From IMG/VR virus record IMGVR_UViG_3300025141_008359, positions 1-23,883 of that record: 23,883 nt of DNA; one strand, 5' to 3'. The number at the start of each line of letters is the position of its first letter. Position 1 is the stretch's first letter. Under the pieces are notes generated by a model. The model ran no database searches. It worked only from the letters and a program-made list of their open reading frames with translations, and was not told the origin of the DNA. The DNA is from a virus. This document shows positions 7,052 to 19,040 of the stretch, piece after piece. The position numbers and the translations under genes were made by a program.

Positions 7052-7968
7052 AACATCACGGCATTTGGAATGAAAAATATAGACCTACTTCATTGGATAC
7101 TTATATTGGGAATGAACATTTAAAATCTAAAGTTAGTATTTTTATAGAAACTAATGATCCTCCACACTTATTATTTTATGGTAGAGCAGGTACTGGTAAG
7201 ACCACGCTTTCAAAGATTATTACAAAGTCTATAGAATGTGAATATTTGTATATAAATGCATCTGATGAGAATAGTGTAGATACAGTTAGAGATAAAGTTA
7301 AAGGTTTTGCATCTACATTAGGATTTCAATCGTTAAAAGTTATTATTTTAGATGAGTGTGATTACATCACACCTAACGCTCAAGCTGCATTAAGAAACCT
7401 AATGGAAACATTTAGTAGACATTGTAGGTTTATTCTAACTTGTAATTATGTAGAAAGAATTATTGACCCAATACAATCTAGGTGTCAATCATTTCAGATA
7501 GTACCACCATCCAAAAAAGAAGTGGCAGTACATTTATCTGAAATATTAACTAATGAGAATGTAAAATTTGAAGTGGATGATATAGCTACAATTATTAATG
7601 GAGCATATCCAGATATAAGAAAGGTTATAAATACATCACAAAGACAGGTTGTAGATGGTATTTTACGGATGGATGCGAGAGAGATTATTTTAAATGATTA
7701 TAAGTTACAAATATTAGAAGTTTTAAAATCTAGTAAATCTAAAAAAGAAACATTTACTGAAATAAGACAAATACTGGCAGATGCAAAGGTTACAGACTTT
7801 GCAGATTTTTTTAGATTACTATATGATGAAGTAGATAGTTATGGTAGTGGACATATTGCCGAATGTATCTTGGTTATAGCAAAGTATGAATTAAGTGATG
7901 CCCAAGTAGTTGATAAGGAGATCAATGTTATGGCTATGATAATAGAATTATTAAGAGTTATAAAATGA
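7042..7968 (+). CDS. 44: Clamp loader large subunit, T4 gp44/RFC-like AAA+ ATPase
   Basis: ATPase that opens the clamp and loads it onto primer-template DNA with gp62. The N-terminus has the RFC-type WNEKYRP start. Walker A is GRAGTGKTT (47-55), Walker B LDECD (Asp104, Glu105), and the SRC arginine-finger motif is at 146-148. Length 308 versus 319 in T4. The start is TTG inside the methyltransferase end; an in-frame TGA at 7036-7038 excludes earlier starts, and AGGGA at 7029-7033 lies 8 bases upstream, which supports it. Unlike T4, the gp62 partner is not adjacent but about 11 kb downstream at 19111. An ATGA overlap links it to the next gene, the first of the accessory island. Confidence 0.95.
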   Translation: MGIEHHGIWNEKYRPTSLDTYIGNEHLKSKVSIFIETNDPPHLLFYGRAGTGKTTLSKIITKSIECEYLYINASDENSVDTVRDKVKGFASTLGFQSLKVIILDECDYITPNAQAALRNLMETFSRHCRFILTCNYVERIIDPIQSRCQSFQIVPPSKKEVAVHLSEILTNENVKFEVDDIATIINGAYPDIRKVINTSQRQVVDGILRMDAREIILNDYKLQILEVLKSSKSKKETFTEIRQILADAKVTDFADFFRLLYDEVDSYGSGHIAECILVIAKYELSDAQVVDKEINVMAMIIELLRVIK

Positions 7969-9146
7969 AACTAAAAATATCTTATAATAAAAAATATATA
8001 GATTCAACATTAAAACTTAAAGAAGAACTTTATAAAAATTTTCCAAAGTGTGAAGTTGTTACTGGAGAAATAGATAATGATAATTTTAGGGTTGAAGTTT
8101 TAGGTTATAATTTAACCGGCGGTCTAAACATGCAAACTCCGGGAGCCTGGTTATGGGATAAAGAAAATAAACGAGATGAATTACCATATATTATAGGTAT
8201 AACAAAATCAAGTTGTGGTACTGTTAGTGGAATATTAGTTCATTGGATAATTCATGATATGATTGATTATGAGGATTCTCGTATTTTTAAAGAAAGATGG
8301 CATAATAATAAATTTCCAATTCCAGATTATGGAACATATACATATTCTAAAGTAGAATCCCCTCATATTTTTTGGTCAGGTGGATTTGATTCTACTTTTT
8401 TAGTTTGTAAAAAGTTAATCATAGATAGAGAACCAATTGAAACATATTATCTGAACTTTCCTTGCGATGGTTATCAGAAAAATTATAATAAATTTGTTTC
8501 AACCAATTTTGATAATTGTATGATTGACAATGAAACTAATGTAGTTGAAGAAGATCTATATGGTAGGAAAAGCTACGGGAGATACAGTAGATTCGTAGAA
8601 ATAGGGATAATGAATAAGTTAAGAGAAATGATTATAGATAAATTCCCTTATACTAAGGATATGTTTCCTAAAGTAAATTTAATTGATGAATTTGAAATTG
8701 ATTCTAAGGTTTTAAAAGATTCAAAGGTTATTTGTGATAAATATAATTCAAGACCTGATAGACCAGACCAAAGTTTGTATATGATACAATTTTCTTTGGA
8801 TTTAGGTAAAGATATATCTGTGGCATGGGAAGCAGATATGGATGGTGAAGATTATTGTTTATCTACGAGGTTGGTACGCAAACATTTAAATGATGAGTTG
8901 AAGGTAGAAAATGATTTAGTAGAGGAATTGTGGTTATACAAAAATTGGGATTTACCATTAGTAAAAACTCATAGAAAAGAGATGATTGAAGATTCGATAA
9001 AATATGATTTTGTAGATATTATGAACCATACTTGGTCTTGTAGATTTCCAAAGGAGAATGGTGATATTTGTGATGGATGTATAGGAGAGGTGGATAATTT
9101 TGATAGAGTTAGTAATTATAAAGATATATTATGTATGACTATTTAA
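7965..9146 (+). CDS. PP-loop ATPase, QueC/ExsB-like
   Basis: PP-loop enzymes adenylate a substrate before attack by ammonia or a thiol. SGGFDST at 138-144 is the pyrophosphate-binding loop. Near the C-terminus HTWSC (Cys359) is followed by CDGC (Cys369, Cys372), resembling the QueC zinc site C-x8-CGxCxxC, which also follows a WSC-like step. The fourth zinc ligand expected at 375 is Glu here. QueC has about 230 residues; this protein has 393, with some 120 extra N-terminal residues of unknown fold and a longer middle. QueC makes preQ0, the precursor of 7-deazaguanine in tRNA and in some phage DNA. No queD, queE, folE or transglycosylase gene is in the window, so a preQ0 role is uncertain and another amidation or thiolation is possible. 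Starts by an ATGA overlap with gp44. Confidence 0.7.
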   Translation: MKLKISYNKKYIDSTLKLKEELYKNFPKCEVVTGEIDNDNFRVEVLGYNLTGGLNMQTPGAWLWDKENKRDELPYIIGITKSSCGTVSGILVHWIIHDMIDYEDSRIFKERWHNNKFPIPDYGTYTYSKVESPHIFWSGGFDSTFLVCKKLIIDREPIETYYLNFPCDGYQKNYNKFVSTNFDNCMIDNETNVVEEDLYGRKSYGRYSRFVEIGIMNKLREMIIDKFPYTKDMFPKVNLIDEFEIDSKVLKDSKVICDKYNSRPDRPDQSLYMIQFSLDLGKDISVAWEADMDGEDYCLSTRLVRKHLNDELKVENDLVEELWLYKNWDLPLVKTHRKEMIEDSIKYDFVDIMNHTWSCRFPKENGDICDGCIGEVDNFDRVSNYKDILCMTI

Positions 9147-13364: not shown

Positions 13365-13945
13365 TAGAAAAAGTATCATTAGATATTGCAAATTATTGGA
13401 CATCAAATGATTTTTTAACAGAATCTAATAAAAGTTGCGGAACTCTTGTTGCCTTTGATTGGACAGAAGGTTATTTAACTGAAATAAACACAAATATAAC
13501 TTTAAGTGATTTAGAACTTGAAAATTTTAAATTTGATGATTTCGTAGAATTTTTAAAAGAGAATAATTTTACTTTTGTATTGGGATTGAGAAATATTGTG
13601 TTTGAAGATAATCCATCACCAGAATGGACAGATAAATTAAAAGAAACATTAAAGTCTGATGAAATAAATTATGATGAATATTTGGTAGATACTTGGCCAG
13701 CACCAATTCCAGAATTTGACGTTCCCGATAATATTTTTTTGTTAAGATATTCATATGATCCATATAATAAAGTAGATAATTTGGCCTCAAACAATTTTTT
13801 ATTTGGAGATTTTATAAAAAAAAGTGATTGGGAAAAATACTATAAAGATAGTAAAACTGAAGAAAAGACAAGAGTTATAGTTTTTTGTAGTGATATAGAA
13901 AATTTAGTATTACATAAAGAATTTAAAAAGTGTATTATAAAATAG
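13361..13945 (+). CDS. Unassigned protein sharing a module with the Hint protein
   Basis: 194 aa, acidic, no signal or membrane segment. No family recognised with confidence. Landmarks are VAFDWTEGYLTEINTNI (30-46), DNPS (83-86) and IFLLRYSYDPYNKVDN (125-140) followed by FLFGDFI. The same landmarks occur in the same order and near-equal spacing in residues 30-170 of the Hint-domain protein at 14438, so the two look like paralogues. The acidic ExNTN motif resembles the metal-binding end of ATP-grasp ligases (FDW then EINTN), which would imply a circularly permuted or partial ATP-grasp domain; that is a guess. ATG overlaps the SGNH stop (ATGA). Confidence 0.7.
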   Translation: MIEKVSLDIANYWTSNDFLTESNKSCGTLVAFDWTEGYLTEINTNITLSDLELENFKFDDFVEFLKENNFTFVLGLRNIVFEDNPSPEWTDKLKETLKSDEINYDEYLVDTWPAPIPEFDVPDNIFLLRYSYDPYNKVDNLASNNFLFGDFIKKSDWEKYYKDSKTEEKTRVIVFCSDIENLVLHKEFKKCIIK

Positions 13946-14385
13946 ATTTAAGTAATTACGAACCAAAAGAAGTTCCAGAATATAATACTTATAATGATTT
14001 TGTATTTAGTGCAGATGTATTGAAGTGTTTAGAAGAAGAGTTAGATAACTTTAAAGATTCATTTGGAAAGCATTGGAAAGAATGGGATATTCCAGAGTTA
14101 AAACATAGACTTGAAAATAATTATACATTTTACTTAATATCAACTGATGAAGAAATTAAAGGTTGGGCATTTATAGATTGGAATAAAAAATATCCATATC
14201 TATGTAATAGGTATGTAGTTCCAGAATTTAGAAAAAAAGGATTAGGAAGTGATTTAGTGTGGTTAAGATGTAATGAAGTTGTTAAACTGGGATACAAAAA
14301 CGCTTCAATTATGTTAGAAGATTGGAATACCCCAGCATTATCGGTTAAAACAGAAAATAATTTTATAGAAATTAAAGAGATATGA
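13930..14385 (+). CDS. GNAT-family N-acetyltransferase
   Basis: Acetyl-CoA-dependent transferase of 151 aa. NRYVVPEFRKKGLGSDLVWL (93-112) holds the GNAT motif A: a strand, then RKKGLG (101-106), which binds the CoA pyrophosphate. GYKNASIML and the NTPALSVKTENNF stretch are the later strand and the helix typical of motif B. The first 60 residues are variable and may set the acceptor. The start is GTG at 13930: a stop at 13924-13926 excludes earlier starts and no nearby ATG follows; it overlaps the previous gene by 16 bases. Substrate unknown; amino sugars, small amines and protein lysines are all possible. Confidence 0.82.
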   Translation: MYYKIDLSNYEPKEVPEYNTYNDFVFSADVLKCLEEELDNFKDSFGKHWKEWDIPELKHRLENNYTFYLISTDEEIKGWAFIDWNKKYPYLCNRYVVPEFRKKGLGSDLVWLRCNEVVKLGYKNASIMLEDWNTPALSVKTENNFIEIKEI

Positions 14386-14437: not shown

Positions 14438-16309
14438 ATGTCAGCAGAAACAAAAATAGTTAATTTATTTAATTATATAACGGGCAGTGCTGGAGGTTGG
14501 CCATCAGATACTAATGTTGGTGTACTCGCTAGTGTAGACTTTTTAATAGAAACAGGTTCAGATGATATTTACTTTCCTGAACTAAATACTAATATTGGAA
14601 TTTTAGGACCACTTTCTGAACAACGAGGGGTCTTTAATGAAGTTTCAGATTATGCAGCTTCAAAAAGTTGTGATACGGCGTATATATACGGAACATTACC
14701 TGCTGCTGGAAAAGATAATCCATCTTCATTTCAACAACCAATCATTAGTTCAAGTTTTGCACAAAATAGTATAAGTTGTAGTTTTGAATATTTTAATACT
14801 GATTCAAGCAGTTATTTTGCACAAAGAGGAGATACAAACTATGCAGGAAGTTTTCACTTTTTTGTTCAGACGCCTTGGTGGGTGGATGATACTCTTCTTA
14901 ATATTGTAAGTGGTTCATTTAATAAATCAAAATTTAGAGATATATTGGGAGCATCACCAGAGAGTGAAAGTTTAATTCCTTTATTTAATACATCATCTTA
15001 TACACCAAATACTAATTTTCCAGATTATGTTATAAAGAATCCAACGGGTCACGCAACTATTCAAACTGGACAATTAGGATTAAATACTTATATATCGAGT
15101 TCAGATTCTTATGAAAATGCAAATTTAGCTGGTAATATTACAGAAAAATTTATTATATCAAGTGGTAGTTATTGTGATGGTAATCCTTATATATTTCAAT
15201 CAAAGCGTTTTTACTTAATGACACCTGATGAACATATACTTTTACAATCATACGGCGGGAGTGTAGCTAGCGAAGGTAGATTTAATCAGCTTGAATCAAA
15301 ACTTATAAGATCCGGTAGTGAAGCTTGGATACCAACACCTATGAGTACGAAAATGTCTGCAAGTGGTAGTTTAATTCATATGTATGATGGTTCAACAAAA
15401 CAAGCACAAGATGTAGAGGTTGGAGATATGGTTAAATCATACTCAATAGTTGGAATGCCAGATGAATCATCAATAAAAGACTGGGGAAGTTTCACGACAT
15501 CAGATTTGAGTGGTTCAACTGCTTCTGATTCTATTGTGGTGAGTGTAAAGTCTTCAGAGCATTATGGATATTATCTAATAAATGATAGTATTAAATTACC
15601 TGTAGACTTGCAAACTACACTTCACGGTGGAAAACTTTTTACAAAAACAGATGATGATATTTGGCGTTGGAAAACCCCACGTGACCTGATAGTGGGCGAT
15701 AAATTTTTAACTCCTGACGTTGAAGAATTAGAGGTAACATCAATTTCTCAAGTATCAGAAGAAGAAACATTTTATGGAATGGATGTTGAGGATATCGATA
15801 CTTATTTCCAATCAAATATTTTGGTTCATAATATTCCACCAAAATGTTTTGTAGCAGGAACGCCTATCACAATGGGTGATGGAACTACAAAGGCGATTGA
15901 ATTAGTTGAGGTAGGAGATGAAGTTACAAATTATGACTTTGAAACAAAAGAAGTGAAAGTTAATAAGGTAACATCAATAGAAACACCAACACACGCAGAT
16001 ATTATAGAAATTAGTTTTGGTGATAAAAAAACTAAGAACACATTTGACCACCCATACTGGGTAGTTGGAAGTGGTCAAAAGGGTTGGAGTTCTTATAAAC
16101 CACAATGGACAGAAGAAAGATATGATATTAAATCGGAACAATTAGAAGTCGGAGATAAATGTTTAGAACTTCATAATGGAGAACTTAGAGAAGTTGAGAT
16201 TACTAATTTAGAAGAGAATATTAATCCAGTTCAGACTTATAGTTTAGAAGTTGAAACACATCATAATTATTTTGCAAATAATATATTAGTTCATAATAAA
16301 ATGCCATAA
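14438..16309 (+). CDS. Protein with two tandem C-terminal Hint domains
   Basis: 623 aa. Hint 2 (470-620) is classical: CFVAGTPITMGDGT with Cys470, repeated VEVGDEV, a TFDHPYWV block B, and YFANNILVHN ending in His619-Asn620, then only KMP. Hint 1 (306-465) has the same skeleton, with GSLIHMYDGST, VEVGDMV, TTLHGG and YFQSNILVHN (His464-Asn465), but Met306 stands where the Cys nucleophile should be. Hint domains in inteins, hedgehog and bacterial intein-like proteins cleave or splice peptide bonds; Hint 1 could at most do C-terminal Asn cleavage. Residues 1-300 are Ser-rich and contain a YFPELNTNIGI segment shared with the 194-aa protein at 13361; FPDYVIKNPTGH (194-205) and EKFI (236-239) recall ATP-grasp motifs. 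A tail or surface role is an alternative reading. AAGGA precedes the ATG by 9 bases. Confidence 0.85.
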   Translation: MSAETKIVNLFNYITGSAGGWPSDTNVGVLASVDFLIETGSDDIYFPELNTNIGILGPLSEQRGVFNEVSDYAASKSCDTAYIYGTLPAAGKDNPSSFQQPIISSSFAQNSISCSFEYFNTDSSSYFAQRGDTNYAGSFHFFVQTPWWVDDTLLNIVSGSFNKSKFRDILGASPESESLIPLFNTSSYTPNTNFPDYVIKNPTGHATIQTGQLGLNTYISSSDSYENANLAGNITEKFIISSGSYCDGNPYIFQSKRFYLMTPDEHILLQSYGGSVASEGRFNQLESKLIRSGSEAWIPTPMSTKMSASGSLIHMYDGSTKQAQDVEVGDMVKSYSIVGMPDESSIKDWGSFTTSDLSGSTASDSIVVSVKSSEHYGYYLINDSIKLPVDLQTTLHGGKLFTKTDDDIWRWKTPRDLIVGDKFLTPDVEELEVTSISQVSEEETFYGMDVEDIDTYFQSNILVHNIPPKCFVAGTPITMGDGTTKAIELVEVGDEVTNYDFETKEVKVNKVTSIETPTHADIIEISFGDKKTKNTFDHPYWVVGSGQKGWSSYKPQWTEERYDIKSEQLEVGDKCLELHNGELREVEITNLEENINPVQTYSLEVETHHNYFANNILVHNKMP

Positions 16310-16376: not shown

Positions 16377-17120
16377 ATGTCAGAGAATGACGATAAAGAA
16401 GGTTATGATACGATGGCAGATGCAGGTATGGCAAAAGAACAGTTATATTTTAATAACTTTTATAGAAGGAAATACATTCAAATGAAGAGAATTAAAGATG
16501 TAGAACAAAATCCCGATTTTAAATACTCGATACAAATCCCAAAATTTTTATCATCCGAAAAATGTGATGAATTAATCGAACAAATAACAACGACAGAAGA
16601 AATGGTTCCAGGCGGTGTTGGTGGTGAGCATGGTGAATGTGCAATTATACCTGAAATCCGTAAGACTAAAGAATGGTATTTATTTGATCAACCGTTAAAT
16701 CCACATAGACCTGATAAATGTAATGGTGATTGGCAATGGTTACAAGATAAAATATATGAAGTTGTAAAAATTGTAAATCAAGGAGTTTTTAAGTTTGATA
16801 TTGAAATGCCCGATAAAGAACTTAAACTTATTAAGTATGAAAAGGGTGATTTTTTTGGTTGGCATACAGATTATAATGCAGGAGATTGTTCTACTAGAAA
16901 ATTAGTAGCACTTATTCAACTCACAGACCCAAGTGAATATGAGGGGTTGGAGACCCAATTCGGTATTCAAGATAAAGATACAAAAGAGTGGTATACAATG
17001 AATAAATTAAAAGGATCATTGACAATTTTTCCTACTTTTATGTGTCACAATGTAACACCAATCACAAAGGGAACTCGTTATGTTATACAAGAATTGTTTA
17101 TTGGGAATCATTTTAGATGA
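16377..17120 (+). CDS. 2OG-Fe(II) oxygenase, prolyl-hydroxylase/PKHD type (copy 1)
   Basis: Uses 2-oxoglutarate, O2 and Fe(II) to hydroxylate a substrate. FGWHTD gives His163 and Asp165, the distal ligand is His224 in MCHNVTP, and Arg234 (KGTRY) should hold the 2OG carboxylate; all are intact. A typical LIQLTDPSEYEG strand lies between. At 247 aa it is about 40 residues longer than its two downstream paralogues, the excess being an N-terminal segment before NPDFKYSIQIPKF. The ATG at 16377 has only a weak ribosome site; later ATGs at 16410, 16425 or 16482 are alternatives. ATGA overlap couples it to copy 2. P4H-type enzymes act on proteins or free amino acids; the target here is unknown. Confidence 0.9.
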   Translation: MSENDDKEGYDTMADAGMAKEQLYFNNFYRRKYIQMKRIKDVEQNPDFKYSIQIPKFLSSEKCDELIEQITTTEEMVPGGVGGEHGECAIIPEIRKTKEWYLFDQPLNPHRPDKCNGDWQWLQDKIYEVVKIVNQGVFKFDIEMPDKELKLIKYEKGDFFGWHTDYNAGDCSTRKLVALIQLTDPSEYEGLETQFGIQDKDTKEWYTMNKLKGSLTIFPTFMCHNVTPITKGTRYVIQELFIGNHFR

Positions 17121-17725
17121 CGGAGAATAAAGATTTTAAGTGGTTTGTATATTTACCATTTCTTAGTGAAGAACAATGTGATGATTTGATAAAAAAAATA
17201 AAGGGTGAAGATAGTTGGGTAGCAGCTGGAGTTTATGACCCACAAAAAGAGAAATCTACTTCAGTAAATCCATCACACCATCGTGAGTGTGATGAGTTAT
17301 ATTTATTATCAGAAACAAATAAAGATATAAAAAATGACTATAGTTGGTTGATAGATAAATTAAATACTATAGTAAAAATTTCAAATGATAGAGTTTGGAA
17401 GTTTGATATTGAAAGTGGTGGTAGTGATTTTAGAGCTATACAATATAAGATTGGAGACCATTTTGGTTGGCATTCAGGTACAGATGCGGGTGTATTATCA
17501 TTAAATAAAATAACTTGTTTAATTCAATTATCAGACCCAAAAGATTTTGATGGTGGGGATTTACATCTCGCCTTTACCAATGAAAATAAAGAGTTTTTTA
17601 AATGTCCTTATAAAAAAGGATATTTATTTATGTTCCCATCTTTTTGTAGTCATATGGTTACACCACTTAAAAGTGGAGAAAGATTTATAATGAGACAAAC
17701 TTACTTAGGAGAGCCATTTAGATGA
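17117..17725 (+). CDS. 2OG-Fe(II) oxygenase-like protein with HxG in place of HxD (copy 2)
   Basis: Same fold as its neighbours: FLSEEQCDDLI opening, LIQLSDPKDFDGGDL strand, distal His179 in CSHMVTP, and Arg189 for 2OG. The iron motif, however, is WHSG (His119-Ser-Gly121) where copies 1 and 3 have HTD and HLD, aligned without gaps. In 2OG halogenases such as SyrB2 and WelO5 the Asp is Ala or Gly, leaving room for a halide on iron. So this may be a halogenase-like enzyme, or a decayed or regulatory paralogue; Asp123, two residues on, might also substitute as ligand. 202 aa, ATGA overlaps on both sides. Fold call is strong, chemistry is open. Confidence 0.88.
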   Translation: MTENKDFKWFVYLPFLSEEQCDDLIKKIKGEDSWVAAGVYDPQKEKSTSVNPSHHRECDELYLLSETNKDIKNDYSWLIDKLNTIVKISNDRVWKFDIESGGSDFRAIQYKIGDHFGWHSGTDAGVLSLNKITCLIQLSDPKDFDGGDLHLAFTNENKEFFKCPYKKGYLFMFPSFCSHMVTPLKSGERFIMRQTYLGEPFR

Positions 17726-18339
17726 TAGATAACTTAAAACAAAAAAATAATTTTAAGTTCGGTATACATAAACACAATTTTTTATCTAAATCCCAATGTG
17801 AAGAACTGATAAAACGATTTGAATCTTCAACACAAGAAAAGGCTAGAGTTGCAGGAACATACGAGGGAGAGGGATCAGTCATAGTGAATGAAAATGTTCG
17901 TAAAGTCCTAGAAGTCAGGTTTGATGATGATTTAGTTTTATCCGATGGGTTTAATGTAGCTAAAAGTATTATTTCAGCAATCAAAATTGCAAACGTAGGT
18001 TATTTTGAATTTGATATAAGTGATATACTTACAAAACCAAGAATATTGAAATATAGTGACACAAAAGATAAATATGATTGGCATTTAGATATTGGAAATT
18101 TTGAAACATCACTTAGGAAAATAACAGCGAGTATACAATTATCAAATCAAGATGATTATGAAGGTGGAAATTTAGAATTAAGTATGACTGAAAATACTGG
18201 AAAGGGAACTGCTGTTGGTAGTAGAGAACAGGGGACATTAGTATTGTTTCCATCCTTTGTAGGACATAGAGTGCTACCAGTTACAAAAGGAGTTCGTTAT
18301 TCGTTAATAGGTTTTATGTTGGGAAATGCATTTAAATAA
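17722..18339 (+). CDS. 2OG-Fe(II) oxygenase, prolyl-hydroxylase/PKHD type (copy 3)
   Basis: 205 aa. YDWHLD gives His121 and Asp123, distal His182 lies in VGHRVLPV, and Arg192 (KGVRY) is the 2OG anchor; the active site is complete. The SIQLSNQDDYEGGNLEL strand and the C-terminal MLGNAFK match the other two copies (FIGNHFR and YLGEPFR), showing they arose by tandem duplication with strong later divergence. Overlaps copy 2 by ATGA. After its stop there is a 56-base gap before the next gene with no convincing signal beyond AT-rich sequence. Confidence 0.9.
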   Translation: MIDNLKQKNNFKFGIHKHNFLSKSQCEELIKRFESSTQEKARVAGTYEGEGSVIVNENVRKVLEVRFDDDLVLSDGFNVAKSIISAIKIANVGYFEFDISDILTKPRILKYSDTKDKYDWHLDIGNFETSLRKITASIQLSNQDDYEGGNLELSMTENTGKGTAVGSREQGTLVLFPSFVGHRVLPVTKGVRYSLIGFMLGNAFK

Positions 18340-18395: not shown

Positions 18396-19040
18396 ATGAA
18401 TAAAGTATTAGTATTAGGGTGTAGTCGCAGTGGAACAACAGAGTTTTGTAAAACACTACAAGAAATAACATCAAAGAAATTGGTATGGGAGCCACAAGTT
18501 GGTTTACAGCGCGACACATCAAAAAATCTATTAAAATTATTTGGAGTTAATGGATTTTTAGATAAAATATATCAAGAGGAAGATACATTTGGAATAAAAT
18601 GGGGATTATATCCAGAGTCAGAATGTAGTACTGAGGTTATAGATTATCACGATTTAGTTTTCTTTTTATCAAGAAGAAATGTATTTAAACAAGTAATATC
18701 GTTATATCTGGCAAAGAAAACAGGGAAATGGAGATCAGTGGATTTTAATGTTGAAACTTTTACACAAAAAGAAAAAGAAGAGTATAATGAAATTAAAGTG
18801 GGTAAGATTGATATTGAAGATATAAAAAAAGATATTAAAGGAATAAAAGAAACATCAGTAAAATTCATAGGTCATTTAAAAAGTCATAGAAATGCAAGAG
18901 TGTTGTTTTATGAAGATTTATTTGGATTCTTTTCAGGTGTAAAAATCAACACCGAAGAGAATTATAAAAATATTGAAAACTGGAAAGAACTTCAGCAATT
19001 CTATATTGACAATAAAGATTTTTGCCGTTATCTTCATTAA
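18396..19040 (+). CDS. P-loop sulfotransferase, C-terminus apparently frameshifted
   Basis: VLVLGCSRSGTTEFCKTLQ (4-22) is the PAPS 5'-phosphosulfate loop, and FFLSRRNVFKQVISLYLA followed by KTGKW is the 3'-phosphate segment with the expected Arg and Ser, as in glycan or protein sulfotransferases. This site is better conserved than in the protein at 11009. The frame stops after CRYLH, but the -1 frame continues without a break for 17 more codons (see 19031-19084), so the family-length protein was probably longer. No obvious slippery heptamer lies at the junction, so a real indel or an assembly error is likelier than programmed slippage. 214 aa as read. Confidence 0.82.
   Translation: MNKVLVLGCSRSGTTEFCKTLQEITSKKLVWEPQVGLQRDTSKNLLKLFGVNGFLDKIYQEEDTFGIKWGLYPESECSTEVIDYHDLVFFLSRRNVFKQVISLYLAKKTGKWRSVDFNVETFTQKEKEEYNEIKVGKIDIEDIKKDIKGIKETSVKFIGHLKSHRNARVLFYEDLFGFFSGVKINTEENYKNIENWKELQQFYIDNKDFCRYLH

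Follow-up and report, generated by a model that had tools for sequence, protein, structure and literature searches.

Oxygenases of the Fe(II)/2OG superfamily usually hold their iron in an HxD/E...H facial triad, which is missing in halogenases and in AspH. In the 2OG halogenases, the Asp or Glu has given way to Gly or Ala, admitting a halide. These enzymes are very diverse, with BesD standing at only 7% to SyrB2 (PMC13244439). The plant halogenase DAH arose by an Asp-to-Gly change among tandemly arranged HxD paralogues (PMC12346261), filtering of AdaV homologues for HxG/A led to active nucleotide halogenases (PMC11186838), and the D157G variant of SadA chlorinates as well as hydroxylates (PMC8407142). 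Other cases point elsewhere. Human AspH (HxG...H) hydroxylates EGF domains without halogenating them and keeps a tightly held water in its site (PMC13168262, PMC10947486). Human prolyl 4-hydroxylase D414G/A neither hydroxylates nor halogenates, while still binding substrate (PMC2767507), and in a BesD-like hydroxylase the Asp-to-Gly change alone is insufficient for efficient halogenation (PMC13244439).

The phage protein described here, OXYB, resembles the Fe(II)/2OG halogenases SyrB2, WelO5, BesD, AdaV and DAH in its HxG/A-type motif and its retained distal His and 2OG Arg, and resembles DAH also in having apparently arisen a single time from an HxD paralogue within a tandem array (PMC12346261). 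Unlike these enzymes, it belongs to phages rather than to natural-product clusters of cells and has prolyl hydroxylases as its nearest folds. Over its whole chain, OXYB is predicted to share the fold of Pseudomonas putida P4H (4iw3, which acts on EF-Tu), PHD2 and the viral vCPH (5c5t); in contrast to OXYB, these prolyl 4-hydroxylases carry HxD, and the triad of the human P4H is essential (PMC2767507). With human AspH, OXYB has in common a two-histidine HxG...H site (PMC10947486). However, AspH belongs to PF05118, whereas OXYB matched only PF13640/PF13759. Other shown or candidate halogenases of marine phages, namely the flavin-dependent viral halogenase VirX1 and cyanophage tryptophan-halogenase-like genes (PMC10452541), differ from OXYB in using flavin rather than Fe/2OG, with unrelated chemistry and fold.

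The locus and its iron-site motif

The window, meaning the whole stretch of DNA analysed, is a 23,883-base virus record that looks like the replication region of a T4-like phage. Its DNA polymerase has its best match in Microcystis phage Mel-JY01 (45% identical), and a class II ribonucleotide reductase, a glutamine synthetase, a DNA methylase and a PD-(D/E)XK nuclease are also encoded. Further genes are presumably those of the clamp, the clamp loader and ClpP, names that come from reading the translations. The glutamine synthetase (1791-2828; PF00120/PF03951) lies beside the class II ribonucleotide reductase, and positions 7965-9146 encode a 393-aa protein without a Pfam match that carries a PP-loop-like motif, SGGFDST, and has a homologue near the oxygenase array of one relative (L057). 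The features discussed below are as follows.

13930..14385, + strand: GNAT acetyltransferase, preceding the Hint protein; same place in most relatives
14438..16309, + strand: Hint protein, 623 aa, with an N-terminal domain modelled as ATP-grasp-like and then Hint/intein-like domains; it immediately precedes the oxygenases in the relatives read
16377..17120, + strand: OXYA, paralogue preceding OXYB, canonical motif HTD...H...R; stop and OXYB start overlap (ATGA)
17117..17725, + strand: OXYB, 2OG-FeII_Oxy_3 (PF13640) protein, 202 aa, ATG start
17471..17485, + strand: codons of H119-S120-G121-T122-D123 of OXYB, from the alignment with the paralogues
17471-17473, + strand: H119 codon, proximal His of the HxG motif
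17477-17479, + strand: G121 codon (ggt), at the iron-binding Asp position of all HxD paralogues
17651..17653, + strand: His179, predicted distal iron ligand, invariant among orthologues
17681..17683, + strand: Arg189, expected anchor of the 2OG C5-carboxylate by analogy with PHD2 Arg383; invariant
17693..17701, + strand: Arg193 to Thr195 (R+4, R+6), predicted second-sphere residues, from the sequence register with PHD2
17722..18339, + strand: OXYC, paralogue following OXYB, canonical motif HLD...H...R; start and OXYB stop overlap
18396..19040, + strand: sulfotransferase-like protein encoded after the array; its PF09037 match is weak

Positions 16377-18339 thus hold three tandem, start/stop-overlapping genes, each matching PF13640 and phrog_61 (phage 2OG-Fe(II) oxygenases). 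OXYB reaches 31.7 bits against the PF13640 profile (curated cut-off 27) and matches phrog_61 at E 8e-22, with E 4e-25 and 6e-33 for the two paralogues. Its translation includes GDHFGWHSGTDAGVLSLNKITCLIQLSDP, with the iron-site residues H119-S-G121...H179...R189; the reading frame 17117-17725 and these four residue numbers, as given in the original prediction, proved exact. The three paralogues align at the motif without a gap (HTDYNAG in OXYA, HSGTDAG in OXYB and HLDIGNF in OXYC), bearing out the gap-free pairing of HSG with HTD and HLD on which that prediction was built. The facial triad HxD/E...H is therefore incomplete in OXYB and in all its orthologues, which have HxG instead.

Conservation and constraint at the ligand position

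Relatives were gathered by protein-relative scans of virus contigs. OXYB orthologues were present on 37 public virus contigs as 15 distinct proteins (58-100% identity), and every one of the 15 has HSGTD...H...R. Gly121, which random residues in homologues would have called into question, is invariant in this set, as are His179 and Arg189, whose retention had been read from the single sequence. Among distinct domains of the virus-contig relatives, taken from these loci and from more distant ones, 15 were H-G-H-R, 239 H-D-H-R and 3 H-E-H-K, and no residue other than G, D or E stood at the ligand position in any scoreable domain. The 242 scoreable relatives outside the OXYB clade were each HxD or HxE, so that among the relatives scored, Gly at this position is confined to the OXYB clade.

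Across 17 distinct nucleotide sequences, codon 121 is GGT, GGA, GGC or GGG. The use of all four Gly codons indicates turnover of the codon under a constant amino acid. Median pairwise dN/dS, from simple Nei-Gojobori estimates, is 0.19 for the HxG clade, 0.17 for the A-type paralogues and 0.15 for the HxD sister; the closeness of these values argues that the gene is not decaying. Sequencing error or a pseudogene was considered and rejected: the identical protein recurs in two further contigs (L001, L002), the 37 contigs have open frames, and dN/dS is 0.19. Taken together, the alignments and codon data indicate that the loss of the iron carboxylate in this phage oxygenase is real, conserved, of single origin and under normal constraint, and that HxG at this site is beyond chance.

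This constraint also bears on the suggestion that OXYB is a non-catalytic partner, a pseudo-enzyme that would bind iron/2OG or substrate and regulate, scaffold or dimerise with OXYA/OXYC. Its gene lies between those of two full-triad paralogues with overlapping starts and stops, virus groups without OXYB still have oxygenase arrays, and the D414G variant of P4H keeps substrate binding after losing activity (PMC2767507), all of which such a role would accommodate. Nevertheless, neither the iron His residues nor the 2OG Arg nor Tyr110 vary in the clade, where codon-level constraint equals that of the HxD paralogues, and a pure scaffold would have little reason to keep these residues. Position 121 also became Gly and stayed Gly, with no variation. 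We therefore regard a non-catalytic OXYB as unlikely, ranking it behind both of the catalytic readings considered below.

Origin of the HxG clade

The HxG proteins come together as a single group, nested inside HxD proteins, in a tree built from 59 dereplicated relatives (clade support 94/80), and HxG and HADYD proteins separate once in 100% of bootstrap trees. The HADYD proteins are the sister group, about 50% identical to OXYB and in the equivalent place in the array. Since all other rows of the tree are HxD, the history is most simply explained by a single Asp-to-Gly change.

The original prediction held that only the carboxylate had been lost, with all else kept. This stands for His119, His179 and Arg189, but not for S120, T122, F171 and T195, which are among the positions fixed differently from the HxD sister. 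Arg193 is common only to the HxG clade and the HADYD sister, while Thr195 is fixed only in the HxG clade. That further positions changed and became fixed alongside G121 suggests that the clade has specialised, rather than simply lost one residue.

The nearby Asp123 could in principle swing in to replace the missing Asp in space, giving an ordinary 2-His-1-carboxylate site, and its invariance across the HxG clade would fit such a role. However, Asp123 is equally invariant in the HADYD sister, where the normal Asp ligand is also present, and the loop from His to an invariant Lys measures 13 residues in HxG and most HxD domains alike, which speaks against a gap-shifted ligand. Asp123 as the ligand, named beforehand as an outcome that would refute the halogenase-type reading, is thus highly improbable by this comparison.

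In two scans of genome contigs, no relative was found that would point to a host-derived gene, although these scans used short peptide patterns and so leave absence unproved. Among the matches listed, isolated phages had no OXYB orthologue, only proteins 22-32% identical. The HxG group is, as far as these sequences indicate, carried by uncultured marine viruses of bacteria in which the acidic ligand was lost once and permanently.

Fold and the predicted iron site

An AlphaFold2 model of OXYB, built with 40 relatives, has pLDDT 89.6 and pTM 0.88, a confident DSBH fold of prolyl-hydroxylase type. Its best fold match is the Pseudomonas putida P4H bound to EF-Tu (4iw3_A; Z 20.1, 181 residues, 3.0 A), followed by PHD2 and other prolyl hydroxylases, and sequence profiles point to PKHD-type hydroxylases. 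Hydroxylases lead the listed PDB sequence and fold matches, among which there was no known 2OG halogenase; this is not an exclusion, and the modelled fold neither proves nor excludes halogenation. The fixed motif, a dN/dS like that of the HxD paralogues, the dismissal of D123 as a ligand and the confident fold together make it very probable that OXYB is a functional Fe(II)/2OG protein with a two-histidine site, one that would bind both iron and 2OG.

R193 and T195 presumably occupy the positions of PHD2 T387 and W389, near the metal, on a register with the PHD2 sequence. A positive Arg193 beside the emptied carboxylate site would suit an anion.

The site can also be read as that of an active hydroxylase, or other oxidase, working like human AspH with a water in the Asp place and the usual hydroxyl rebound. 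AspH is itself a natural HxG...H protein hydroxylase with a water at the third site and no halogenation (PMC13168262, PMC10947486), and FIH is described, in a work cited in PMC10947486, as retaining some hydroxylase activity after an Asp-to-Gly change. The enzymes closest to OXYB in fold, P4H bound to EF-Tu and PHD2, modify residues of proteins, and the conservation and dN/dS of OXYB are compatible with any active enzyme. However, OXYB lies outside the AspH family, matching PF13640 and not PF05118, and the residue that stabilises the water in AspH (D721 of the D721/H725 pair, an Asp four positions before the distal His) is an invariant Ser175 in OXYB. Its own Asp was apparently lost from an HxD ancestor, with no obvious carboxylate substitute except possibly Asp123 in the second sphere. 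A hydroxylating OXYB is accordingly possible, if on the unlikely side, and it is the foremost of the alternatives to halogenation.

Halogenation as a candidate reaction

Halogenation is the leading single reaction hypothesis for OXYB, held tentatively at somewhat short of an even chance. Counted in its favour are the HxG, distal His and 2OG Arg invariant in 15 distinct orthologues, the emptied site with Arg193 predicted beside it, and the tailoring-like neighbour genes; the absence of a halogenase from the listed sequence and fold matches, with protein hydroxylases as the nearest folds, counts against it. The interpretation of the motif as halogenase-type thus survives in part: HxG is real and fixed and D123 is probably no ligand, but HxG is not exclusive to halogenases. 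To call it the mark of a halogenase was an overstatement, given an AspH that hydroxylates without halogenating and a P4H D414G/A that does neither (PMC13168262, PMC10947486, PMC2767507).

Under the halogenation hypothesis, OXYB would be a catalytically competent Fe(II)/2OG enzyme of prolyl-hydroxylase-type fold, with His119 and His179 as the only protein ligands of the iron. The vacated Asp121 place would be taken by an exogenous anion, most likely chloride. Decarboxylation of 2OG would yield an Fe(IV)=O that abstracts hydrogen from the substrate, and rebound of chlorine, not hydroxyl, would leave the substrate chlorinated. Such an enzyme would have arisen when one of the hydroxylase paralogues in a tandem array underwent a single Asp-to-Gly change, and would then have been maintained by purifying selection in a marine T4-like phage group. 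It would probably tailor the same product or protein as the HxD oxygenases beside it and the ATP-grasp/Hint protein.

If OXYB does halogenate, it would be the first viral Fe(II)/2OG halogenase in the literature searched, and one of prolyl-hydroxylase-type fold. Even if it does not, it offers a natural Asp-to-Gly experiment, an HSGTD/HADYD orthologue pair about 50% identical and in the same array place. This pair could be used to ask what steers such a site to hydroxylation, to halogenation or to loss of catalysis, which has until now been addressed mostly by engineered variants.

Gene neighbourhood

Where the neighbourhood of relatives was read, the genes run (GNAT) - Hint protein - 3 to 5 oxygenases - (sulfotransferase-like) - gp62 clamp-loader subunit. 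Some have a methyltransferase-like gene within the oxygenase array, which in several comes directly after OXYB (L101:10399-11028, L103:4690-5322, L049:4600-5277), and in some, zinc dehydrogenase, radical-SAM/SPASM, B12 radical-SAM or AspH-family genes flank the array. The surroundings resemble an island of tailoring or modification genes, a setting in which a specialised oxygenase, whatever its substrate, is plausible.

The N-terminal domain of the Hint protein (residues 1-307) has a D34...E48-x-N50 pattern invariant in aligned relatives. ATP-grasp profile matches are weak and limited to 3 of 10 members. The AlphaFold model of the domain (pLDDT 73.7, pTM 0.74) finds as its best 25 PDB fold matches only glutathione-synthetase/glutathionylspermidine-synthetase-type or related ATP-grasp ligases (Z 10.9-6.8), with unrelated folds appearing only from Z 5.2; a viral fold search with this domain gave nothing significant. 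One to several Hint/intein-like domains follow C-terminally, their number differing between relatives. The Hint protein is possibly a self-processing ligase, and its constant adjacency is what suggests a link to the oxygenases. In its fullest version, the halogenation hypothesis has a phage Fe(II)/2OG halogenase with the prolyl-hydroxylase fold attaching chlorine to a peptide or protein that the neighbouring self-processing ATP-grasp/Hint protein makes or processes, all within a phage-borne tailoring cassette; as a whole, this version is improbable.

An AspH-family (PF05118) oxygenase beside one array (L102:6296-6964, - strand) was considered as a parallel for the HxG motif and set aside, its motif being HND. 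At the end of another fetched stretch (L100:19035-19901, - strand), the C-terminal part of a TonB-dependent receptor barrel (PF00593) lies beside a phage polymerase, and represents either a host gene in a phage or a chimeric contig. The same contig carries an extra PF13640 oxygenase outside the array (L100:13821-14384, - strand), between clamp-loader and methylase-like genes.
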